Assembly (NCBI GenBank): GCA_964036295.1
Contig: OZ038464.1
Location: 13,192,001-13,256,000, forward strand
Direction: 5' to 3'
DNA from: Plumapathes pennacea
Lineage: Eukaryota > Cnidaria > Anthozoa > Antipatharia > Myriopathidae
Length of the DNA: 64,000 bases
Positions within the stretch are counted from its first letter, which is position 1. Each line of letters opens with the position of its first letter. The position numbers and the translations under genes are program-made. The notes beneath the pieces are model-generated. The model was not told the origin of the DNA and searched no databases. It worked only from the letters and a program-made list of their open reading frames with translations. This document shows, piece by piece, positions 5,933-59,052 of this stretch.

Positions 5933-6329
5933 ATGAAGCCATCCAGCAAACAAGAATCGGTCATCATGGTAAAAGAGACCTTTCTGCCGCGGTCGGGCAA
6001 GTTCCAGCTGATGTTCTTTTTGCTTGTTCTGGTGCTCGTTGCTTTGGCATTTGCGGCCGGAGTGCTATTTCGTCCTTTTATTACATCGCACTGTGGAATC
6101 AGGCATGGTGACGACGGCGACAAAGTTCACTCAGTCCGCGGCAAGAGGACTTCGAGTGTCTGTATGACAAATGAAGATTTCACAAATCTTGTAGAGAAAG
6201 CCAGGGCTTCGCTGAAATCTTCTTTGCCGAAGGCTTCAAAGGGAACGAACTCTTTACATGAAATTGATCTGCCACGCAGAGAGCCACCAAGAATCACAGA
6301 AGGAATCGAGAAGGGAAAGTTAAAAAAAG
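5933..6329 (+). CDS. Lectin exon 1: cytoplasmic tail, membrane anchor, start of stalk
   Basis: Starts at an ATG and ends at an AAAAAAG|GTGAGG donor in phase 1. It encodes 132 residues. The first 24 or so residues are polar and basic, followed by MFFLLVLVLVALAFAAGVLF, a clear membrane span with no obvious signal cleavage site. The rest is a charged extracellular stalk with lysines and prolines. The frame stays open only about 40 bases past the donor, consistent with a real intron there. Confidence 0.8.
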
Positions 6330-7968
6330 GTGAGGGTTTACTAAGACTTTGTGTTGATCCTGTTTTTTGATTACACGGTAGACGTGTTTCACTGTTCGGC
6401 TGTTTAGTGAAACGTAGCTGTGTTGTTCGTGAAGATATGCCCTGCATGTGTGGCACTGCGGTGACAGGAACCACGGAGGCCCCACGAATTCAACTGATTT
6501 TAAGCAGTTTACAGTAAAATTGGAAGAACGAAAATATGACGCCACCATGACTCTTATTTAGGCCAGAAACTTGCTGATGGCAGAGACAAGAGGTTTATAG
6601 GGGAGAAGGTCAAAAGGGAAAGGAGAAAAGCTCTTTTCCCCTTACAGTTTTCTCCCTCCCTCCCTCCCTCTGCCTCTGCCGCTTTTTGCCCGCCTCCGAA
6701 CGATCTGCCCCTAAGCTGAATCAGTAGTGCCAGCCGCGGAGGTCTCCGAGGATGCTTCCAAGAGCGATCAACTTTAATCTTCTCTTGTAAATTCTCACTA
6801 GCCCACTAGAGCTTTTGATGGCTTACTTAGATGAAAACTGATTCTCACACACTCAAAGGTCATGTCAGGTCGTCCGGAGTTAGCAAACAAGATATTCGGA
6901 TCGGTGAAACCGCGGAACAAAAAGTTTGTAACCACAGGTTTAGAAACGGGAAGATGTCAGCGCCTGGGTGAGTTCTGCCCACATCAGGCGTCGCCACGTT
7001 GTGACGTCATTTCCCTGTAAAAGCCGTTTCCAAAACGGCTACACGCAGTTTATGGGTCTAAATAAATACAATACACAATTAAGCGTTGCTTGGCATGCAG
7101 TTCTATCCAAGTAATTTGAGAAGCTTCGTTTGACATAAAAGTGATATTTAGACCTACTTTGCCATCGAGATGCTGTTTGTTTCGTTTTGGGAACTAAGGC
7201 CCTGTTTACATGGAGAGAGGGTAACCTTCCAAGGAGGGACACCCTCCAAGAAGGGTCAGAAGATAGCCCCCCTTTACATGCCAAGCGTTATCCCTAGGGT
7301 TATCTCGCCAAGAGTCTGAAAGGAATCGCGCGGTCGCGAAATTTGAGATAGTAACCTGGCACCGCTAAACTTAGCCTCCCTGGGAGGGTAACCCTCCCTC
7401 GAGTGTTTACATGGCCAAAAGTTGTCCCTACTGGGAGGGTAACCCTAGCAAGAAGATAAGGTAACCCTCCTCCTAGGGTGACCCTACCGATCATGTAAAC
7501 GGAACAAGGAATTTCAATAGAGAAGGGTGACCCTTCTAGGAGGGTGTCCCTCCTGGGAGGGTTACCCTCCTTCCATGTAAACAGGGCCTAAAACAACTCT
7601 GAGTTTTGCAGATTCTCTTAACCGTTTTAGTAGAAAATGTACGAGTCATGTAGTGAGAATTGATAGCTCAATCAGCTTTTATCTAAACAAGCTATCAAGA
7701 GCCAATTTCCCCATTCACCGTAATATCTCTGATGAGAAAGTGAATCAGAAAATTAAAGTAGATCACTCTTGGGAGTGAAATGTTAAAACCGTTTGTGAGC
7801 TTCATGGTTTACCTGTCGGAGGCTTTTTGCGGAAGATAACAGCCAGAGTAGCCGAACTGCAATCGTACAGGCACGTTTTGCGACATCCTCAGTCGATCAC
7901 TAAATATACGAGTTCGTTTCTTCTAAATAGTTAGGCAGTAAAACTGTGGTTTTCTTTTTTTTCTTTCT

Positions 7969-8024
<56 letters not shown>

Positions 8025-11000
8025 AATTCTTCTTAATACGCAATTATAGGTTTGTTTCTTCTAAATTTAAGCAGTAAGAAAAGTGGTGTTTTTTTCCTCA
8101 CTTCTTCTAGATCTCAAAGTGCTCATCATAGCCAACTTGACAGCTTACCTCAACCGAACCTTGACGGAAATTTTGTCGGAAAAACTGGGAGAGTGTGCAC
8201 GCGGAGGAGATAGCCAAGAAACAACTCGAAATCCAAGTGCACGAGTTGGGCAGCGACACGAAACAACTCGACGGCCAACATTGATCCACATAAATTCAGT
8301 AAAACCGACTACTTCGCAAACAAGTACCAAGGGTAAGGAAAAAAAGATTGTAATACAGAAATTTAACTATAGCATAACATATTTACTGTGTAGGTTTCCA
8401 CTTAACCCTTCAACTCCCAAGCTCAATATGCATTTTTACAATAACACGTCAGTTTCTCGCTTTGTGATTGGCTAATTTTCATTATCAATAAGAGGACAGA
8501 CACATAAAATCGAGTGCTGACGACAGTGATTTGGACGAAGAAGGTGAATTCAGCTTCAATTTTACCTCAGTTCTTGCAAAAGCGACATTCGGCATTTGAA
8601 GTAGAAAACCAGAAGTGTTCAGAGGCGAATTTCCTTGAGCTTTGTCTTGAAATTGTCGAGAAAACCGCAGAAGAAAAGCGTCTAGTTCATTTCTTTCCAA
8701 CTTCTTTGACAAAATTTTATTTTGCATGCGCGAAATGCTCACGTCAAACTGTCACTTTTTAGCCAATGAAATGTCTTGAATTTCAACCTCGACCAATTAG
8801 AAAGCGGGAAAAGTTGTTGACAACATTTCGGTCAAATCGAACAAAATCCAGTTTTCTTGCGTGTTTTCCCCGCGTCGTCGCTTGAGTTTTGTTATTGTAA
8901 AAAACAAATTGACGTCAGTTTTTTATGTGTCTGTCCTCTTATTGATCATGAAACGCGTCATTACATTGTCAAACACAACTTTTTGACGATGTTATGACGC
9001 GTTTCATGATCAATAAGAGGACAGACAAAAAACTGACGTCAATTTGTAAAAATTCTCCTAAAACTTTTAAGAAGAAAATGTACGAGTGATGTAGTAAGAA
9101 CTGGTGGTTTAACCCTTTTACTCCTGAGAGTGATCAACTTCAATTTTCTCCTTTAGTCTCACCAGAGATATGTGATATAGTGTGGAGAATTTGCTGCTTG
9201 ATAGTTCAGTTAGATAAAAGCTGAGTTGCCTATCAATTCTTACTATTTCTTCTTGCATGATTAAGATAATATGTATTTTGAGCTCAGGACTGAAAGGGTT
9301 AAAGTCAGCTTTCATCTGAGCAAGTTATCAAAAACCGAGTTCTCCATACTGTTTGATATATCTTTATAGTGAGAGACTGAAGGAGAAAATTGAAGTTGAT
9401 AACTCATGGTTGGGGTGTTTACGACAGGCCCCGACTTCAACACTCTGAAACCAGGACCAGAAGTTATTGACAAGGTGGACGAGTCTGGTTCTGGATCCGG
9501 AAGTGGAAGTGAAATCTTCATCTTTGATAAGGAGGAGACGCATTGTCCGGACGGATGGTCGAAATTTGAACACTCGTGCTACACGATCAACAACGCAGCC
9601 CCGACACAGAACTGGCAGCGCGCCAAACAGGCCTGCACAAGCATGGACGCTTCACTGGTGGTTATCAACTCGCACGAAGAAAACCTTTTTGTGTACCAGC
9701 TTGCGCAGCAGAAAGCCCCGAGTTACCGGTACATGTGGATTGGCCTCTACAGACCTTCCCCCTGGGAGAAATTTCGATGGCTCAGATTCGTCGACTCAAC
9801 TTTCGGTTATCACAACTGGGCCAAGGGTGAGCCGAACAACGATCGGGGCAACGGAGAGAACTGCGTTCATATGTACCTTACAAACTTTAAAAACCGACAA
9901 GCGCAGTGGAACGACGAAAAATGCTTGAACCCTGGTAACGGAGGTCCCATGGTTTACATGTGCGAAAGGCCTGCTACAACCGAAATCCAAACAACTCGAA
10001 ATCCAAGTGCACGAGTTGAGGAGCGACACGAAACAACTCGACGGCCAACATTGATCCACATAAATTCAGTAAAACCGACTACTTCGCAAACAAGTACCAC
10101 GGGTAAGCAGAAAAGATTGTACCGATACAGGCAGACGAATTTAACTATAGTATAACATATTTACTGTTTAGGTTTCCACTTAACCCTTTCACTCCTAAGC
10201 TCAAAATGCATATTTCTCACAAACGTTTAAGAAGAAAATGTACGAGTTGTGATGTAGTAAGAACTGATAGTTTAAAGTCAGCTTTCATCTGAGCAAGTTA
10301 TCAAAAACCGAGTTCTCCATACTGTTTGATATATCTTTATAGTGAGAGACTGAAGGAGAAAATTGAAGTTGATCACTCATGTTTGTGATGTTTACGACAG
10401 GCCCCGACTTCAACACTCTGAAACCAGGACCAGACGTTATTGACAAGGTGGACGAGTCTGGTCATGGATCCGGAAGTGGAAGTGGAATCTTCATCTTTGA
10501 TAAGGAGGAGACGCATTGTCCGGACGGATGGTCGAAATTTGAACACTCGTGCTACACGATCAACAACGCAGCCCCGACACAGAACTGGCAGCGCGCCAAA
10601 CAGGCCTGCACAAGCATGGACGCTTCACTGGTGGTTATCAACTCGCACGAAGAAAACCTTTTTGTGTACCAGCTTGCGCAGCAGAAAGCCCCGAGTTACC
10701 GGTACATGTGGATTGGCCTCTACAGACCTTCCCCCTGGGAGAAATTTCGATGGCTCAGATTCGTTGACTCAACGCTCTGTTATCACAACTGGGCCAAGGG
10801 TGAGCCGAACAACGATCGGGGCAACGGAGAGAACTGCGTTCATATGTACCTTACAAACTTTAAAAACCGACAAGCGCAGTGGAACGACGAAAAATGCTTG
10901 AACCCTGGTAACGGAGGTCCCATGGTTTACATGTGCGAAAGGCCTGCTACAACCGAGGAATCCAGCGGCCAGGAGAAACCGCACCAGGCTGTTGGTGAAA

Positions 11001-11056
11001 GTTTTATCTTAAGTGACGCCATTCCTTCCGAAGACGACGACATATATATACTATAG
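5933..11056 (+). CDS. Type II transmembrane C-type lectin, four exons, two lectin domains
   Basis: Proposed exons are 5933-6329, 8111-8332, 9428-10102 and 10401-11056, stop at 11054-11056. All three introns are GT-AG and all are phase 1, so any internal exon can be skipped in frame. The four-exon product is 649 aa; without exon 3 it is 424 aa. Residues about 20-45 are a hydrophobic segment after a basic stretch, as in a type II membrane protein. Exon 2 encodes a stalk with NLT and NRT glycosylation sequons and a Thr/Arg-rich linker. Exons 3 and 4 each encode a full C-type lectin domain with cysteines, WIGL, EPN and WND motifs. In this fold EPN plus WND indicates calcium-dependent, mannose-type sugar binding. 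In corals such lectins are candidates for microbe or symbiont recognition, but that role is inference here. A poly(A) signal AATAAA lies near 11157-11163. Confidence 0.85.
6740..6870 (-). repeat. Degenerate TTAA-MITE copy in lectin intron 1
   Basis: Minus-oriented fragment recognised by AGCGATCAACTTTAATCTTC, then TTTTGATGGCTTACTTAGATGA and TGATTCTCAC, in the order typical of the family. Termini are decayed. Confidence 0.55.
7198..7588. mobile_element. Harbinger-type MITE with TAA target duplication
   Basis: A 391-bp element bounded by inverted GGCCCTGTTTACATGG termini and flanked on both sides by TAA (7195-7197 and 7589-7591). The interior is rich in inverted GGGAGGGTAACCCTCC blocks, so each strand could fold strongly. 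A 3-bp TAA duplication is typical of PIF/Harbinger elements. No transposase frame is present, so it is non-autonomous. It sits in intron 1 of the lectin gene, next to a TTAA-MITE fragment. Confidence 0.8.
7594..7796 (+). mobile_element. TTAA-MITE copy in lectin intron 1
   Basis: Plus-oriented copy with GCAGATTCTCTTAACC, GAAAATGTACGAGTCATGTA, ATCAGCTTTTATCTAAACAAG and a right end GATCACTCTTGGGAGTGAAA. The left terminus is missing or replaced by the neighbouring Harbinger-type element. Confidence 0.7.
7954..8022 (+). repeat. Poly-T tract in lectin intron 1
   Basis: A pyrimidine run that becomes an uninterrupted T tract of about 52 bases. It lies about 90 bases before the acceptor of lectin exon 2. 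Length in homopolymers of this size is unreliable in assemblies. Confidence 0.9.
8111..8332 (+). CDS. Lectin exon 2: glycosylated stalk
   Basis: The acceptor is a pyrimidine-rich TTCCTCACTTCTTCTAG and the donor is AAGG|GTAAGG. At 222 nt the exon is symmetric, phase 1 to phase 1. It encodes 74 residues: a hydrophobic start (KVLIIANLTAYLNRTLTEIL) with two N-glycosylation sequons, then a Thr/Arg/Pro linker containing ETTRNPSARV and KPTTSQTST. The linker half, about 120 nt, recurs almost unchanged at the 3' end of exon 3. That repetition is strong support that it is coding. Confidence 0.75.
8484..8946. mobile_element. MITE with AATAAGAGGACAGACACATA termini in lectin intron 2
   Basis: Inverted ends of about 25 bases: TCAATAAGAGGACAGACACA at the left (8485) and its reverse complement at the right (to 8945). 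The interior contains overlapping short frames on both strands but no recognised transposase. The corresponding second intron (10103-10400) lacks this element, so it entered after the exon duplication or was lost from the other copy. Confidence 0.7.
8904..9046. repeat. Long near-perfect palindrome
   Basis: Arms of about 55 bases (8904-8961 and 8993-9046) face each other across a loop of about 31 bases. Each arm includes ACGTCAGTTTTTT, GTCTGTCCTCTTATTGATCA and TGAAACGCGTCAT or their complements. The left arm overlaps the right end of the 8484-8946 MITE, so the palindrome looks like a second, inverted end of the same family. Confidence 0.8.
9113..9298 (-). mobile_element. TTAA-flanked piggyBac-type MITE, full length, with empty site known
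   Basis: A 186-bp element bounded by CCCTTTTACTCC and an inverted CTGAAAGGG end, flanked by TTAA on both sides (9109-9112 and 9299-9302). The duplicated intron at 10272-10275 has a single TTAA at the exactly corresponding place (offset 973), which is the unoccupied target. TTAA duplication with CCC-starting ends is the signature of piggyBac-superfamily elements. This copy is inserted in reverse into an older copy of the same family. Confidence 0.85.
9428..10102 (+). CDS. Lectin exon 3: first C-type lectin domain plus stalk linker, chimeric
   Basis: The acceptor ACGACAG|GC and the donor ACGG|GTAAGC make a 675-nt phase 1-1 exon. Bases 9428 to about 9982 match exon 4 at roughly 98-99%, including an acidic Ser/Gly linker and the whole lectin domain (HCPDGW to VYMCERP). 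Bases about 9986-10102 match the end of exon 2. The exon therefore fuses the front of exon 4 to the back of exon 2. Key motifs are WIGL, GEPNN and QWNDEKC. It is in frame with its neighbours in every splicing combination. Confidence 0.8.
10184..10380 (+). mobile_element. Older TTAA-MITE copy abutting the exon 4 acceptor
   Basis: Begins at TTAA|CCCTTTCACTCC (TTAA at 10180-10183) and runs through AAGAAAATGTACGAG, CAGCTTTCATCTGAGCAAG and GAAGTTGATCACTC. It stops about 20 bases before the exon 4 acceptor. The paralogous intron carries the same copy (about 9047-9108 plus 9303-9405, split by the nested insertion). The branch point of both lectin-domain exons probably lies within this element. Confidence 0.7.
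10401..11056 (+). CDS. Lectin exon 4: second C-type lectin domain and C-terminal tail
   Basis: The acceptor is ACGACAG|GC, identical to that of exon 3. It encodes 217 residues and the stop. The lectin domain is the same as in exon 3 except for a few residues, the most notable being a Phe-Gly to Leu-Cys change before YHNW that adds an extra cysteine. After the domain comes a unique acidic tail ending in DDDIYIL. EPN and WND motifs are intact. Confidence 0.85.
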
Positions 11057-12401: not shown

Positions 12402-25966
<13,565 letters not shown>

Positions 25967-39048: not shown

Positions 39049-39938
39049 TCACAATGTCGAGTAAAATCCTCTTTGATCTAATCGCGGATCCTCGGGAGTC
39101 CAAACCTTTGCCGTCAGCGTAGATGAGCTGTGTTTGGGTTTTTTCGAGTCAGTCCACGACAGCGAGTGTCCAGTGAGTGGTGATAAGCCATACTCGTTTT
39201 GTGATGCTGCAGGTGAATCACACACATAAAATGAGCAAACATATACATTCGAAGTATCACTTCCCCGACGCCAAAACGCGGTTGCGTGGCGTTGGCCAAT
39301 TTTGCAGAGGACAGCTAAGTTGACTATCCTTTTCTACGTTTTTATCTCACTGAGAACGGCACAAGATGTCGACCAATTTAGACACACAAGAATGCGAAAA
39401 ACTGCCCAAAACGTCAACCTATTAGTCATGATCGGTACATGAATGTGAGAACGACACAGATGCGTGAGAATTTTGTCAAACAACGCGGTCAATGGGAATT
39501 GAATGATAACCTACCAAATCCACGGTGACAGATCATTACTTTGCGTGGCTGGTCGGCACAGGAGCTTGGCTGAAGAGCTTGATTGTGGCTCATATCCGAG
39601 TTAATCATCTCAGTTAGGAAGCCAATGTATCCGATGGCCAGGCGAAGTGTATCCACTTTGGAAAGTCTCTTCTCGTACGGTAGGGTAGGGATGTGTTTCC
39701 GTAAGCCTTCAAAGGCTTCGTTTATACTCTGCATTCGCTTTCGCTCCCGCAGGTTTGCCGAGTGTCGCTGCAGAAGTTGTTGAGACGGGGATTTTTGCCG
39801 TCTTTTCTTCTTTAAGTCACTCTTTTCCTCAGCATCGGAGACGCTCGCTTTGTAGACCGCGAACGGTGGTGGCGATACTTGAGAAGAATTTTCATGAAAA
39901 ACGGTGCTTTCCATATGTTGCGCCATCAGGCTTTCCAT
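39049..39938 (-). CDS. PTF1A: Ptf1a orthologue, bHLH transcription factor, two exons
   Basis: Exon 1 is 39938-39515, donor TTTG|GTAGGT. Exon 2 is 39206-39049, acceptor CACCTGCAG. They join in phase 1 to give 193 aa. The bHLH domain is at residues 60-112 ([20 protein letters not shown], then [19 protein letters not shown]), characteristic of the PTF1A family. After it come KVMICHRG (134-140), [12 protein letters not shown] (148-159) and [10 protein letters not shown] (174-183). The last two match the vertebrate C1 and C2 motifs that bind RBPJ or RBPJL in the PTF1 complex. Family members pair with E proteins, bind an E-box next to a TGGGAA-type box, and specify neurons and, in vertebrates, exocrine pancreas. 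The N terminus is short, as expected outside vertebrates. A poly(A) signal AATAAA lies at 38735-38730. Confidence 0.95.
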
Positions 39939-39998
39939 GGTTCAAGAGTGGTGTGATTCAAGGCTAGTTAATCAGCACTTTCAGCAAACTGGCACACG

Positions 39999-53014: not shown

Positions 53015-53449
53015 TTAACCGCGGCTGACCGAGACCTTGGGCCCGTATCCGCGCAACGTTGTTTGTACGGCGTCCTCTGCTTCCACTAAAACGACGTCGC
53101 CGGAGGACGCCACTGCTGTCGCTAGTCCGCACTCTCCGTCTTCTTGTCTCTCACCGCTTTTTAAGAGCTGCAACAGCTCCGCGATGTATAAAATCGCGTA
53201 CCGCAGTGTCTGGATTTTCGAGAGCCGTTTTTCTTTGGGGGCAAACTTGGTGGGCAAGTGATACCTCAGATGCAGTAGCGCTGTGCTAATGCTGCGCATT
53301 CTGGACCTTTCACGAGCGTTCGCAGTCTGGCGCTGTTTGCTGAGACCAGTCAAGCGGGGCTTGCGTCGTCTTTTTCTTCTCTTGGTTGTTTCGTCGCTGG
53401 GAAAGAGGTCTGATCTGCACAGACTGTTGCATAACTCTCCGTCAGCCAT
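53015..53449 (-). CDS. Group A bHLH transcription factor, single exon
   Basis: From ATG at 53449 the frame gives 144 aa. An upstream in-frame extension to 53509 has no ATG. Residues 23-33 are a run of Lys/Arg that could serve as a nuclear signal. The bHLH domain spans 39-96: basic QRQTANARERSRM, helix 1 SISTALLHLRYHLP, loop TKFAPKEKR, helix 2 LSKIQTLRYAILYIAELLQLL. The Glu of the RER motif that reads E-boxes is present. A short tail rich in Val and acidic residues follows. It resembles the Mesp/mesogenin and Twist-related classes, but I cannot assign an orthologue by eye. Such proteins dimerise with E proteins and act in cell-fate choice. It is a paralogue of the gene at 57.0 kb, which shares RQTAN.RERSRM and KFAP. 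Confidence 0.85.
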   Translation of the reverse strand: MADGELCNSLCRSDLFPSDETTKRRKRRRKPRLTGLSKQRQTANARERSRMRSISTALLHLRYHLPTKFAPKEKRLSKIQTLRYAILYIAELLQLLKSGERQEDGECGLATAVASSGDVVLVEAEDAVQTTLRGYGPKVSVSRG

Positions 53450-53842
53450 CCAGAAAGCATTCAGATGCGAAGCTTTCAGGTCTCTGCGGCTTTGAACTGC
53501 TTCGAGCACTGACTAACTTGCTTTACCTCACACACACATTTTAAGGTGAGCTTAGCTAACGGTTACTTGACATGGCAGTCAACAATCATGACAGTTGCCT
53601 GGAGCGCGCGTCGCGCTGACAGTGACACGACGGGTTGACCCCCTTCTTTCGCCCAATCAAAACAAGGCAGTCAGAGATAATCAGTTCCAAATGAAACAAG
53701 TGACTGTCTTGGAGTTAATTGATCAGTGAGTGCTTCAGTGCGCCGTGATACAAAGCAGACGCACCTGGTTAATGACACCAATTTGGGCTCACAAGGGCCT
53801 TTGTCTAGCTTTGGTGCTAAAGATAGTTAGCAAAGGAAATCG

Positions 53843-54899: not shown

Positions 54900-56990
54900 G
54901 ATACCTTTATTACGAAATTTAGTTTTACTGGCAGCCCTCGTTTTGAAACTGAGGCAACATGCATCTCTGAAATGGTCTATTCGTTTGACATTGCACTTGT
55001 GAGCTCATAGTGTACAAATTCTTCTAGCTAAGTATACAAGAAGAAACGCAGGAATAATACAATGGTAACTGACAGCTCATCAGCTTTGACATTCAATAAA
55101 GCTGTTAATATTATTAACCAAGTTCTTCTGATTGTATGAAAAGTTCTCTCTACCGTATGTCACATATCGGGCGAAAGACTGAGTGAGAAAATCGAAGTTG
55201 ACCATTCTTGGGAGTAAATGATTTATAGCTTCTGTACTTTGGTGTGTGCGTAAGTGTAGACATATAGCTTCACTTTCCGCAAAGCTAATTTTAGCACTCA
55301 CTTTCCATAATCCTCGTGGAGTTCCTTGTGAGTGCTACGCTCTTGGCTTCCCAGGGGACTGAATAAAGTTTAGCCGTTACGACAGGCCAACTATCCTACT
55401 GGTACAATGAGGCGTGATGAGCTGCAAGACAGAACAATCAATCAATCAATTTCACTGGACACTAGACACTAGTTGTAGAAATTGGCATCTGAGTGCGGGA
55501 TCAAACAAAAACTGATTAATCCGCTGGTTTTCTGCGCGGTCCCGCGGTACTGTGTTTTTTTACGTCACTACAAAAGCGTTGGTCAGCGTTCGTCGCCATT
55601 GCAAAATGTGCAAGTTCTAGGAAATATCGTGTTTATTAGCCTTTAGAAATATTTTTGTTCTAAGAAATATCCTGTTTATTCCAACGCATAACGTTAGGCC
55701 GATTAGACGGTGGGCAGACGCATGCAATGCATATCGTTTATTCATAATACCAACATCGTTAGTTTGCAAAGTCCGTATTGTGGCATTACCCTCAAGTTAT
55801 ACAATTTAAGGAATGAAGAAGCCAACAAGCAGTTATTCACCTGTCACAAAAGAAAAGTTAATGGCACTTTCACGCTATAACAGTTTTCACAGACAACTGA
55901 CTAATATCCAATTTTCGATTCGATTGCTCGGAATGAGTGAATGACTTGATTCGATATTTTCACGTACACTGTATGTTTCTTAGCTCAACAGGAGGGACAA
56001 TGGTGGCCAGAAATTGTAGGATTTGGCGATTCGTTCATAATCCCGCTGCATCCCTGAATCAATGGCCAAACAACCGGAACGAAACATATGAGCCCAACTA
56101 GCCCTACAAGGCGACTGCTCTGAAACCCTTCCCTATAAAAGTAATAAATAAACAGCCTAAAAAAGTAAAAAGAAATGGCTGTCAACGTCACCAAACCAGG
56201 CTATAGTACCATAGTTTCAAATCACTTACATTCCTCTACGTCTATTAGCACGACTTTTTTCATTCCTCAATTCACAATGCAGATTCTCCTAACTATTCTT
56301 AAAGAACATATACCGGAGCGATGTAATGAGAATCGATAGTTCAATCAGTTGCCATCTGAACAAGCTATTGAATGCCAAGTTTTCTAAATTGTTCAATATA
56401 CTCGCTGGTGAAAGAGAGAAAATCCCAGGAACGGTCTACTTCAATTTTCTCTCAGTCTCGGGCCAGAGAAATATCATACATTATGGAGAACTTGGCTTTT
56501 GATAGTTTGCTTAGTTGAAAGCTGATTGGAATATCAAATCTCAATGCATCTTCACACATTTTCCTCTTGAATGGTTGGAAGCATCTACACATTTCAGTTT
56601 AACATCAAATTTAAAGATGTAAAAGTTAGAAAATTCAGTCAAGAATTATAGCAGTGTGCGCCACATCTATTCGACTTTCTTTCTCTTTTACGCCCTACCA
56701 TGCACTACATCAATACTTGAGCTGCCGTATTCAAGTGGTGGCACTCAAAGGGAAAAAATATTCAAAAAATTATCTTTTCTTTAACTGGTCTCAGAAATTT
56801 ATTGTTACAAGTGGATTCCTCCGTGTTATAATTACATCACCTAGAGCTGTTACTAAAAGCACATTCCGACACTAAAGATGGGTGTAGTTTGGAGAGAATT
56901 CTAGAAATATATCTAAAAACAATTTTTGAATTGATCAGTGCGGCAAAGTCTCGATAGTTAGCACCTAAAGAAATTTTTGCGAAAACTTTC
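54900..56990. other. No gene recognised; three more TTAA-MITE copies
   Basis: TTAA-MITE fragments lie at about 55083-55225 (plus), 56268-56440 (plus) and 56435-56575 (minus). The last two are back to back. An AATC tetramer run occurs at 55436-55452. No open frame has a recognised domain. Confidence 0.5.
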
Positions 56991-56993
56991 CAA

Positions 56994-59052
56994 ATGCCAA
57001 TGGTCGAGTCTGTCAACCGCACTCCAGACATTATAAAGGCAAGACCAGACTTCGCAATAAATTTTTGGAGACCGAACTCGAGATTCTTCCGCCGCGTTGC
57101 TTCGCGTTCAGCACTGATGGGAGATGAACTGAATGTGACACTTCCTCTCTCAAGAAGACGAGTTACTAAGCGTCACGATGCGCATGCAGGTCATGCAAGC
57201 AAGGAACGGCAAACAGCCAACGATCGAGAACGATCGCGAATGAGCTGCATCCGCGTTGCTTTCCAGAAACTGAGGAAAGTCATTCCAAGCAAGTTTGCAC
57301 CGCCGTTCAAGCATCTGCCCAAAATCAGCATCCTCCGCTTCGCGATCAGCTACATCTCGGAAATGTCGCAGATTCTGCGGGACCACGAAGATCAAAAACT
57401 CCGCAGCAGCCAAAACGAGTCAGCCGCTCTCTTGATGAAAGTTCGTTCTGATGAAGATGTGAACGAAACCAAGACTGACATCGAGAATACAAAGCATAAC
57501 GTGGAGTTGGATCAAAACAGTCAACAGTGTAGGGAGGCACCACAACCCAGAACTGACAGTAGTGCAGAGTCATCCAGTGGATTTCTGGATAAGGATTTAA
57601 GCCCGGAAGGTTTTCAAAATTTGTGGGAGCTGACAATCACGCCAAGTAAGCGAATGCAGCCCGATATGTCAGTGCAAGAAGGAACGCATGCAGCCCGACT
57701 TGAGACTTCGAATTCTTCGCCAGAGATTCTAGCAACACAGAGCCATTTTATGTCGCGGGAGCAGCCAGCAATACTGGCCGCAGAGAAGCATTTTGTGCGA
57801 GAGCAGCCAGGCATTCTGGCCCCACAGAGATATTCCCTGGATCAGCAACCAGATATTTTAGCAACACAGAGTCATTTTGTACGAGAGCAGCCAGAGATTC
57901 TAGCAGCACAGAGCCATTTTCAAGCAGAGCAACAGAGCACCCACAAAGAGAGTTATGCAGAGCTACCCAGATTCCTAACTACAACAGGACAAGAAGGCTG
58001 GACCTCAGAGGCACCATGTGGATCACAAACGCATTTGTATGAAATCGCCCCGGAACTGTCAGTGCTACATGCCCTGGAAACCCACAGATTGACAGAACAA
58101 GGACTTCACGCTAACCCAGAAAGACAGGATTTCTTTAGCTCCGAACAGTATTTAGATATCCTCCGGGAACTTTGGTTGTCATCGAACGACATCCTGCTAG
58201 CAACTGCTGCACAAACACCCTTCGAGGAGGAGCAGAAAAATACTGGAATGGAAGAAGAATACAGTTATCATAGTACAAGACGAGAACTGCCCCCACTAAA
58301 GGAAGAAGTAAGCTCAGATAATTCCTTGCAATGTGACGTTGACCTCGTAGACTACTTGAAAGATATGGGATCCTTCGGCACGCTGTTCAGAGGCGCGGCC
58401 GGGCATCAGGAGAGCCTTGGCTTCGGAGATTATCCAGAATTTGCAGACCTGACGCTAACAGATATTGACGAAATTCTTACGGCAGGGGTGAGTTTTAACC
58501 TTGATACATTTTCTTTTGAAAAACAATCCCGTCACAAACACGGGTTTTCCGTCCATATATCACACCATACACTCGAGCCTGCTCTACGAGATCGGTTTTC
58601 GGATGACTGTCAAAAGTAATCGTGTGGTTTTCGGATGACTGTCGATAGTAATCGTGTGGTTTTCGGATGACTGTAGATAGTAATCGTGTGGTTTTCGGAT
58701 GACTGTCGATAGTAATCGTATGGTTTTCGGATGACTGTCCATAGTAATCGTGTGGTTTTCGGATGACTGTCAAAAGTAATCGTGTGATTTTCGGATGACT
58801 GTCCATAGTAATCGTGTGGTTTTCGGATGACTGTCGATAGTAATCGTGTGGTTTTCGGATGACTGTCGATAGTAATCGTGTGGTTTTCGGTTGACTGTCA
58901 AAAGTAATTGTGTGATTGCTTTGGTTTTGTGTTTGCTGCGCTTTCAGATTCAAGTCCAAGCAACTCAGTATGGCAGCTTTCTCTGCCAATCACAAAAGCG
59001 GCAAAACGCGACTGCGATCTCAGTGGCCAAGCAAGCAAGCAAGTGGCAATGA
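56994..59052 (+). CDS. Large bHLH transcription factor with repeated C-terminal motif, two exons
   Basis: Exon 1 is 56994-58487 with donor GGCAGGG|GTGAGT. The proposed exon 2 is 58948-59052 with acceptor TGCGCTTTCAG, stop TGA at 59050. Joined in phase 0 they give 532 aa. An unspliced read-through would stop at 58619 after 541 codons, inside a minisatellite. The bHLH domain is at residues 71-128: basic RQTANDRERSRM, helix 1 SCIRVAFQKLRKVIP, loop SKFAPPFKH, helix 2 LPKISILRFAISYISEMSQIL. Residues about 242-313 contain five tandem repeats of 14-15 aa of the form P.ILATQSHFVREQ. The end of exon 1 is acidic and hydrophobic (YPEFADLTLTDIDEILT), as in activation domains. It is a paralogue of the 53.0-kb gene. 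I do not recognise an orthologue. Exon 2 needs transcript support. Confidence 0.8.
58592..58917. repeat. 32-bp minisatellite, ten copies
   Basis: Ten contiguous units of 32 bp with consensus GGTTTTCGGATGACTGTCGA then TAGTAATCGTGT. Main variants replace CGATAG with CAAAAG or CCATAG. It fills most of the proposed intron 1 (58488-58947) of the bHLH gene. There are no unique spacers, so it is not a CRISPR array. Confidence 0.95.

Follow-up and report, generated by a model that had tools for sequence, protein, structure and literature searches.

Exon 3 of a C-type lectin gene in the coral Plumapathes pennacea appears to have been made by one tandem duplication that ran from the middle of exon 2 to the middle of exon 4, a reading which is strongly supported. 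All positions refer to the window, that is, the whole 64,000-nucleotide stretch of DNA that was analysed. The fuller history, in which a three-exon ancestor underwent one duplication, a further step at the junction and later insertions, is very probably correct. The exon model is a prediction from open frames and splice signals in the sequence. The boundaries so obtained give three introns, all GT..AG and each in phase 1:

5933-6329 (+): exon 1, coding part, with the start codon, a hydrophobic segment, a membrane-near stalk and a phase-1 donor
8111-8332 (+): exon 2, stalk, 222 nt, phase 1-1; the duplicated part is the last 114 nt (8219-8332)
8333-9427 (+): intron 2, 1095 nt, an ancestral intron copy with two later insertions
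9428-10102 (+): exon 3, chimeric, 675 nt, phase 1-1, with an exon 4-type front and an exon 2-type back
10103-10400 (+): intron 3, 298 nt, an ancestral intron copy without later insertions
10401-11056 (+): exon 4, with a linker, the lectin domain, an acidic tail and the stop

Other repeats are also found in the gene. The stalk exon contains an older 42-nt (14-residue) direct repeat at 8195-8278, its units 71% alike, which adjoins the breakpoint, and intron 1 holds an element (7197-7589) with 62-nt inverted arms (92%) built from AGGGTNACCCTCC words.

The first-pass annotation had described exon 3 as a fusion of the front of exon 4 with the back of exon 2, and the comparison of the copies agrees with this. 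The front of exon 3 (9428-9983, linker and lectin domain) differs from exon 4 (10401-10956) at 8 of 556 bases, and its back (9989-10102, the stalk) differs from exon 2 (8219-8332) at 3 of 114. The self-dotplot that had been proposed as a check was run as a self-comparison and returned two direct repeats, 8219-8437 against 9989-10215 (89.9%, E 1e-83) and 9286-9989 against 10260-10964 (97.45%, E 0). An intragenic tandem duplication is favoured because the order of both repeats is that predicted for one tandem unit. The adjacent copies begin at 8219 and 9989, with the junction at 9984-9989, and an intron was multiplied along with the flanking exon parts on either side.

The ancestral gene would have had three exons, encoding a membrane anchor, a stalk, and a lectin domain with an acidic tail. 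The unit from the middle of the stalk exon to the middle of the lectin exon would then have been duplicated in tandem at a similar 14-16-base word present in both exons. The acceptor and donor that had been claimed for exon 3 are seen in the sequence together with the open frame (225 codons) and the 1-1 phase; both sites come from the parents, the new middle exon having retained the acceptor of the lectin exon and the donor of the stalk exon. The "extra stalk" of the earlier description is present as a copy, but it comprises only 38 codons plus the junction and not a complete exon 2.

The intron after exon 3 had been said to match the intron after exon 2. Introns 2 and 3 are indeed copies, with matching ends and a shared old copy of one short dispersed repeat. 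Intron 3 matches both ends and a middle fragment of intron 2, and the remainder of intron 2 consists of later insertions:

8434-9051 (+): dispersed repeat element in intron 2, absent from intron 3
9108-9303 (-): second short repeat element in intron 2, inserted at TTAA within an older copy of its own family

The first element has 38 other near-full-length copies (92-95%) among 40 scored of 1148 candidates, and the second has 39 other copies (81-87%) among 40 scored of 2335 candidates. Intron 3 is uninterrupted at both places (empty sites), and the difference is therefore due to gain in intron 2, not to loss from intron 3. Both elements would have landed after the duplication. Repeat-mediated exchange between intron elements was considered as its cause and rejected, as both breakpoints are in exons, outside the repeats.

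The breakpoints and the junction carry related short tracts:

8221-8236 (+): breakpoint tract in exon 2, ACAACTCGAAATCCAA, aligned as ACAACTCGA--AATCCAA
10949-10964 (+): breakpoint tract in exon 4, ACAACCGAGGAATCCA, aligned as ACAAC-CGAGGAATCCA
9976-10006 (+): junction in exon 3, with a 15/16-base word present twice, ACAACCGAAATCCAA and then ACAACTCGAAATCCAA

The short similarity that the parents had been proposed to share at the breakpoints was found in these tracts. It is real, and uncommon but not extreme: when exon 4 and exon 2 were compared as pairs of 20-base windows, every third base being sampled, 95 of 14,416 pairs (0.66%) scored as high. Tandem Repeats Finder reports the junction as two copies of a 16-base unit. 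This doubled word, absent from the first-pass annotation, decides the reading frame of exon 3.

Four joins were modelled for the junction. A crossover inside the shared ACAAC.CGA..AATCC tract is out of frame and results in three stops, and a plain exon 4/exon 2 join after AATCC also gives three stops. A crossover followed by a 16-nt re-copy reproduces the observed exon 3 except for three known substitutions, and so does a plain join with loss of GG (2 nt); the re-copy and the loss are indistinguishable from the sequence. The open frame of exon 3 is not the product of a clean cut, because both plain joins give three stops. The earlier statement that a single tandem duplication explains everything is therefore upheld by the repeat geometry but has to be extended by a junction step. 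This second local step, either the re-copy or the loss, would have opened the frame, whether during the repair that made the duplication or afterwards. The alternative that exon 2 once carried the 16-nt repeat and then lost it was rejected on logical grounds, because losing 16 nt, which is not a multiple of 3, would have put exon 2 out of frame.

Divergence between the copies is uneven. With the insertions set aside, 16 of 271 columns separate the two introns, along with 4 indels; 9 of 100 columns are changed in the left part of the intron and 4 of 124 in the right part. In the right parts all four substitutions fall in the last 27 bases before the acceptor (9401-9427, 10374-10400). Between exon 3 and its parents in exons 2 and 4 there are 3 synonymous changes at 143.7 sites, one of them at the junction, and 9 nonsynonymous changes at 525.3 sites, which shows little apparent constraint on the amino acids and no strong purifying selection. 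The left intron part differs from the synonymous sites with P 0.017, the left from the right part with P 0.086 and all intron sequence from the synonymous sites with P 0.087. The exon copies are about 2% different, against 9% in the left intron part, and a span of 14 bases holds 4 of the 9 exon differences (P 0.0045). These patterns hint, weakly, at later gene conversion across the lectin domain, which may have preserved the likeness of the two domains. Both the unevenness and the clustered exon differences would also fit at least two rounds of unequal exchange, in which the locus expanded and contracted, in place of one event. Such a history is improbable: the gene holds no more than two lectin exons and a single additional stalk copy, a second junction did not turn up in it, and the unevenness is equally explained by gene conversion that followed a single event.

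It is less probable still that the duplication is an assembly artefact in which both alleles of a single unduplicated gene were placed one behind the other. The exon difference and the insertions present in one copy would suit two alleles, there is a scaffold gap (14001-14200) about 3 kb further downstream, and allelic duplications are known from coral assemblies, as far as these are described in PMC10236652. That gap is, however, the sole run of N, and the junction itself has neither N nor a long overlap. The cuts are both exonic, the frame of the exon stays open across the junction and the junction has its own duplicated 15/16-base word, features that a joining error has no reason to make.

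The encoded protein is a C-type lectin by profile and by predicted fold. In Pfam, the Lectin_C profile (PF00059) matches in two stretches (118.6 bits against a cut-off of 22.6, E 2.5e-34); UL45 also matches (28.7 bits, cut-off 27) without a stretch of its own. For the exon 4 domain, the structure prediction (pLDDT 78, low at residues 81-97) has 518 PDB matches at E <= 0.001, the lectin domains of CD23, mincle and DC-SIGNR among them. Both lectin domains contain the EPN and WND motifs, which would mark calcium and mannose-type sugar binding. The exon 4 domain has an extra cysteine (STLCYHNW), absent from 15 of 15 other aligned domains. By hydropathy only, there is a single hydrophobic segment, its best 19-residue stretch at residues 28-46, and the stalk that follows is rich in Ser, Thr and Pro. 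This order of an N-terminal hydrophobic segment, a stalk and a C-terminal lectin domain suggests a type II membrane protein. With all four exons the predicted product has 649 residues and would likely be a bivalent receptor, a type II membrane lectin that carries two almost identical lectin domains one after the other; a one-domain form of 424 residues would result if exon 3 is skipped.

Exon 3 is probably included in at least some transcripts, as judged from its sequence. The shared exon parts have 0 indels, whereas the intron rate would predict about 10 (or about 5 with a single copy free to change; P 0.007). The missing indels are not proof of selection, since gene conversion would have the same effect. 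Skipping of exon 3 keeps the frame, as both exon 2 (222 nt) and exon 3 (675 nt) are symmetric; phase symmetry would thus permit a choice in splicing, as had been proposed. It is rather unlikely that exon 3 exists in the DNA but goes unused, with exon 2 joined to exon 4 and the one-domain lectin still made. The acceptor tract of exon 3 is weak (8 of 18 pyrimidines) and the copies are young, which would be in line with an unused exon, and a phase of skipping is plausible because a clean join would have been out of frame. Yet exon 3 is open over all its codons without an indel, and its acceptor is little different from that of exon 4 (10/18; exon 2 has 17/18), which must work for the stop to be reached.

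In a bolder version of the history, the chimeric exon would have been born out of frame, tolerated through skipping thanks to its symmetric 1-1 phase, and then opened by 16-nt slippage at the breakpoint tract, and the lectin would now switch between one and two domains by splicing. This sequence of events is improbable; if true, a domain would have been gained in two steps through a silent exon.

A relative of the gene in the same genome (G000, contig C3) bears on the ancestral state:

C3 21780751-21774530 (-): relative, three-exon gene model, 388 residues, 8.6 Mb away
C3 21780751-21780325 (-): its exon 1 (modelled), with an open frame, a hydrophobic segment and a phase-1 donor
C3 21775530-21775324 (-): its exon 2, stalk, with phase-1 junctions
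C3 21775062-21774530 (-): its terminal lectin exon, with an acidic tail and a phase-1 junction

The lectin exon of the relative is 49% identical to the query domain and is the best of 126 matches after the two exons of the window. The stalk exons of the two genes can be aligned: their score is reached by 5 of 2000 shuffles, and that of the front part by 0 of 2000. For the first exons no alignment above chance was obtained, with 1599 of 2000 shuffles reaching the score, and they have in common only the hydrophobic segment and the donor phase. A genome search with exons 1 and 2 (E <= 0.001) found three places, all in the window gene, and did not find the relative. The one-domain ancestor that had been predicted is thus matched by an unduplicated three-exon gene model with phase-1 introns. 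The unduplicated form was found as a paralogue in the coral's own genome, the one animal genome that the search covered, with exon 1 modelled, and not as the orthologue in another species that had been anticipated. The relative supports an ancestor with one lectin domain and three exons, of which the first is less certain. Lectins with two domains are in themselves no novelty in this genome: on contig C8, which has 26 lectin-exon matches, there are 8 places with two or three such matches within 2.5 kb on one strand.

Other features of the window lie downstream of the lectin gene. Just behind the 200-N gap there is an uninterrupted array of the ATG trinucleotide (14744-18905; 1387.3 copies, 100% matches), which yields very long homopolymer reading frames on both strands. 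A DnaJ domain exon was detected at 23761-24213 (-; E 7.5e-11), and 10 kb downstream of it on the same strand is a frame (13032-13571) that looks SANT-like and had no Pfam match. The two are perhaps parts of one DNAJC1/2-like gene that spans the ATG array. A small bHLH gene cluster is represented by helix-loop-helix open frames at 39492-39941 (-; E 3.4e-21), 53018-53512 (-; E 1.6e-13) and 56958-58616 (+; E 6.2e-14).

Domain gain through duplication inside genes is common knowledge, and the process seen in this lectin gene is a known one; its junction is unusually legible and its copies are fairly young. Among the papers looked at in a literature search, nothing was recognised as this lectin gene. 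At this young age the words at the breakpoints, the edit at the junction, the splice sites taken over from the parents and the subsequent insertions can still all be seen, and the origin of a two-domain receptor from a one-domain one can be followed base by base. The edit also illustrates how narrowly an event of this kind escapes failure, given the three stops in both plain joins modelled. If both forms are made, they would offer a simple test of the effect of the second lectin domain on binding.

CD23, mincle and DC-SIGNR share the C-type lectin domain fold with the window gene, according to the PDB matches, and are type II membrane lectins with a stalk. Each of their chains has a single lectin domain, and avidity comes from oligomerising, whereas the window gene would have two lectin domains in one chain if exon 3 is used. 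A close parallel in gene structure is Arabidopsis TOUCH3 (Knowles and McLysaght 2006, as cited in PMC4974935), where an intron was duplicated internally with flanking exon parts. As in the lectin gene, the whole intron was tandemly duplicated with exon sequence on both sides, but TOUCH3 belongs to another gene family and, in the account of PMC4974935, two such duplications are described. In the potato RdRp gene, as presented in the same source, a tandem duplication across an intron-exon border also reused parental splicing signals, but there a new intron arose via a cryptic donor, while in the lectin gene an existing intron was multiplied with both of its sites (PMC4974935). The chimeric genes of Drosophila yakuba, so far as PMC5460883 sets them out, similarly arose by tandem duplications that ignore gene parts and join unlike ends; in those cases two neighbouring genes were joined, and in the lectin gene two exons of one gene. 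Like the lectin, bivalent spider toxins and caspase-16 went from a one-domain to a two-domain protein by intragenic duplication (PMC13172734, PMC12198278). Unlike the lectin gene, the spider toxin Hc1a is described there as duplicated within one exon and caspase-16 as duplicated by whole exons (PMC13172734, PMC12198278).
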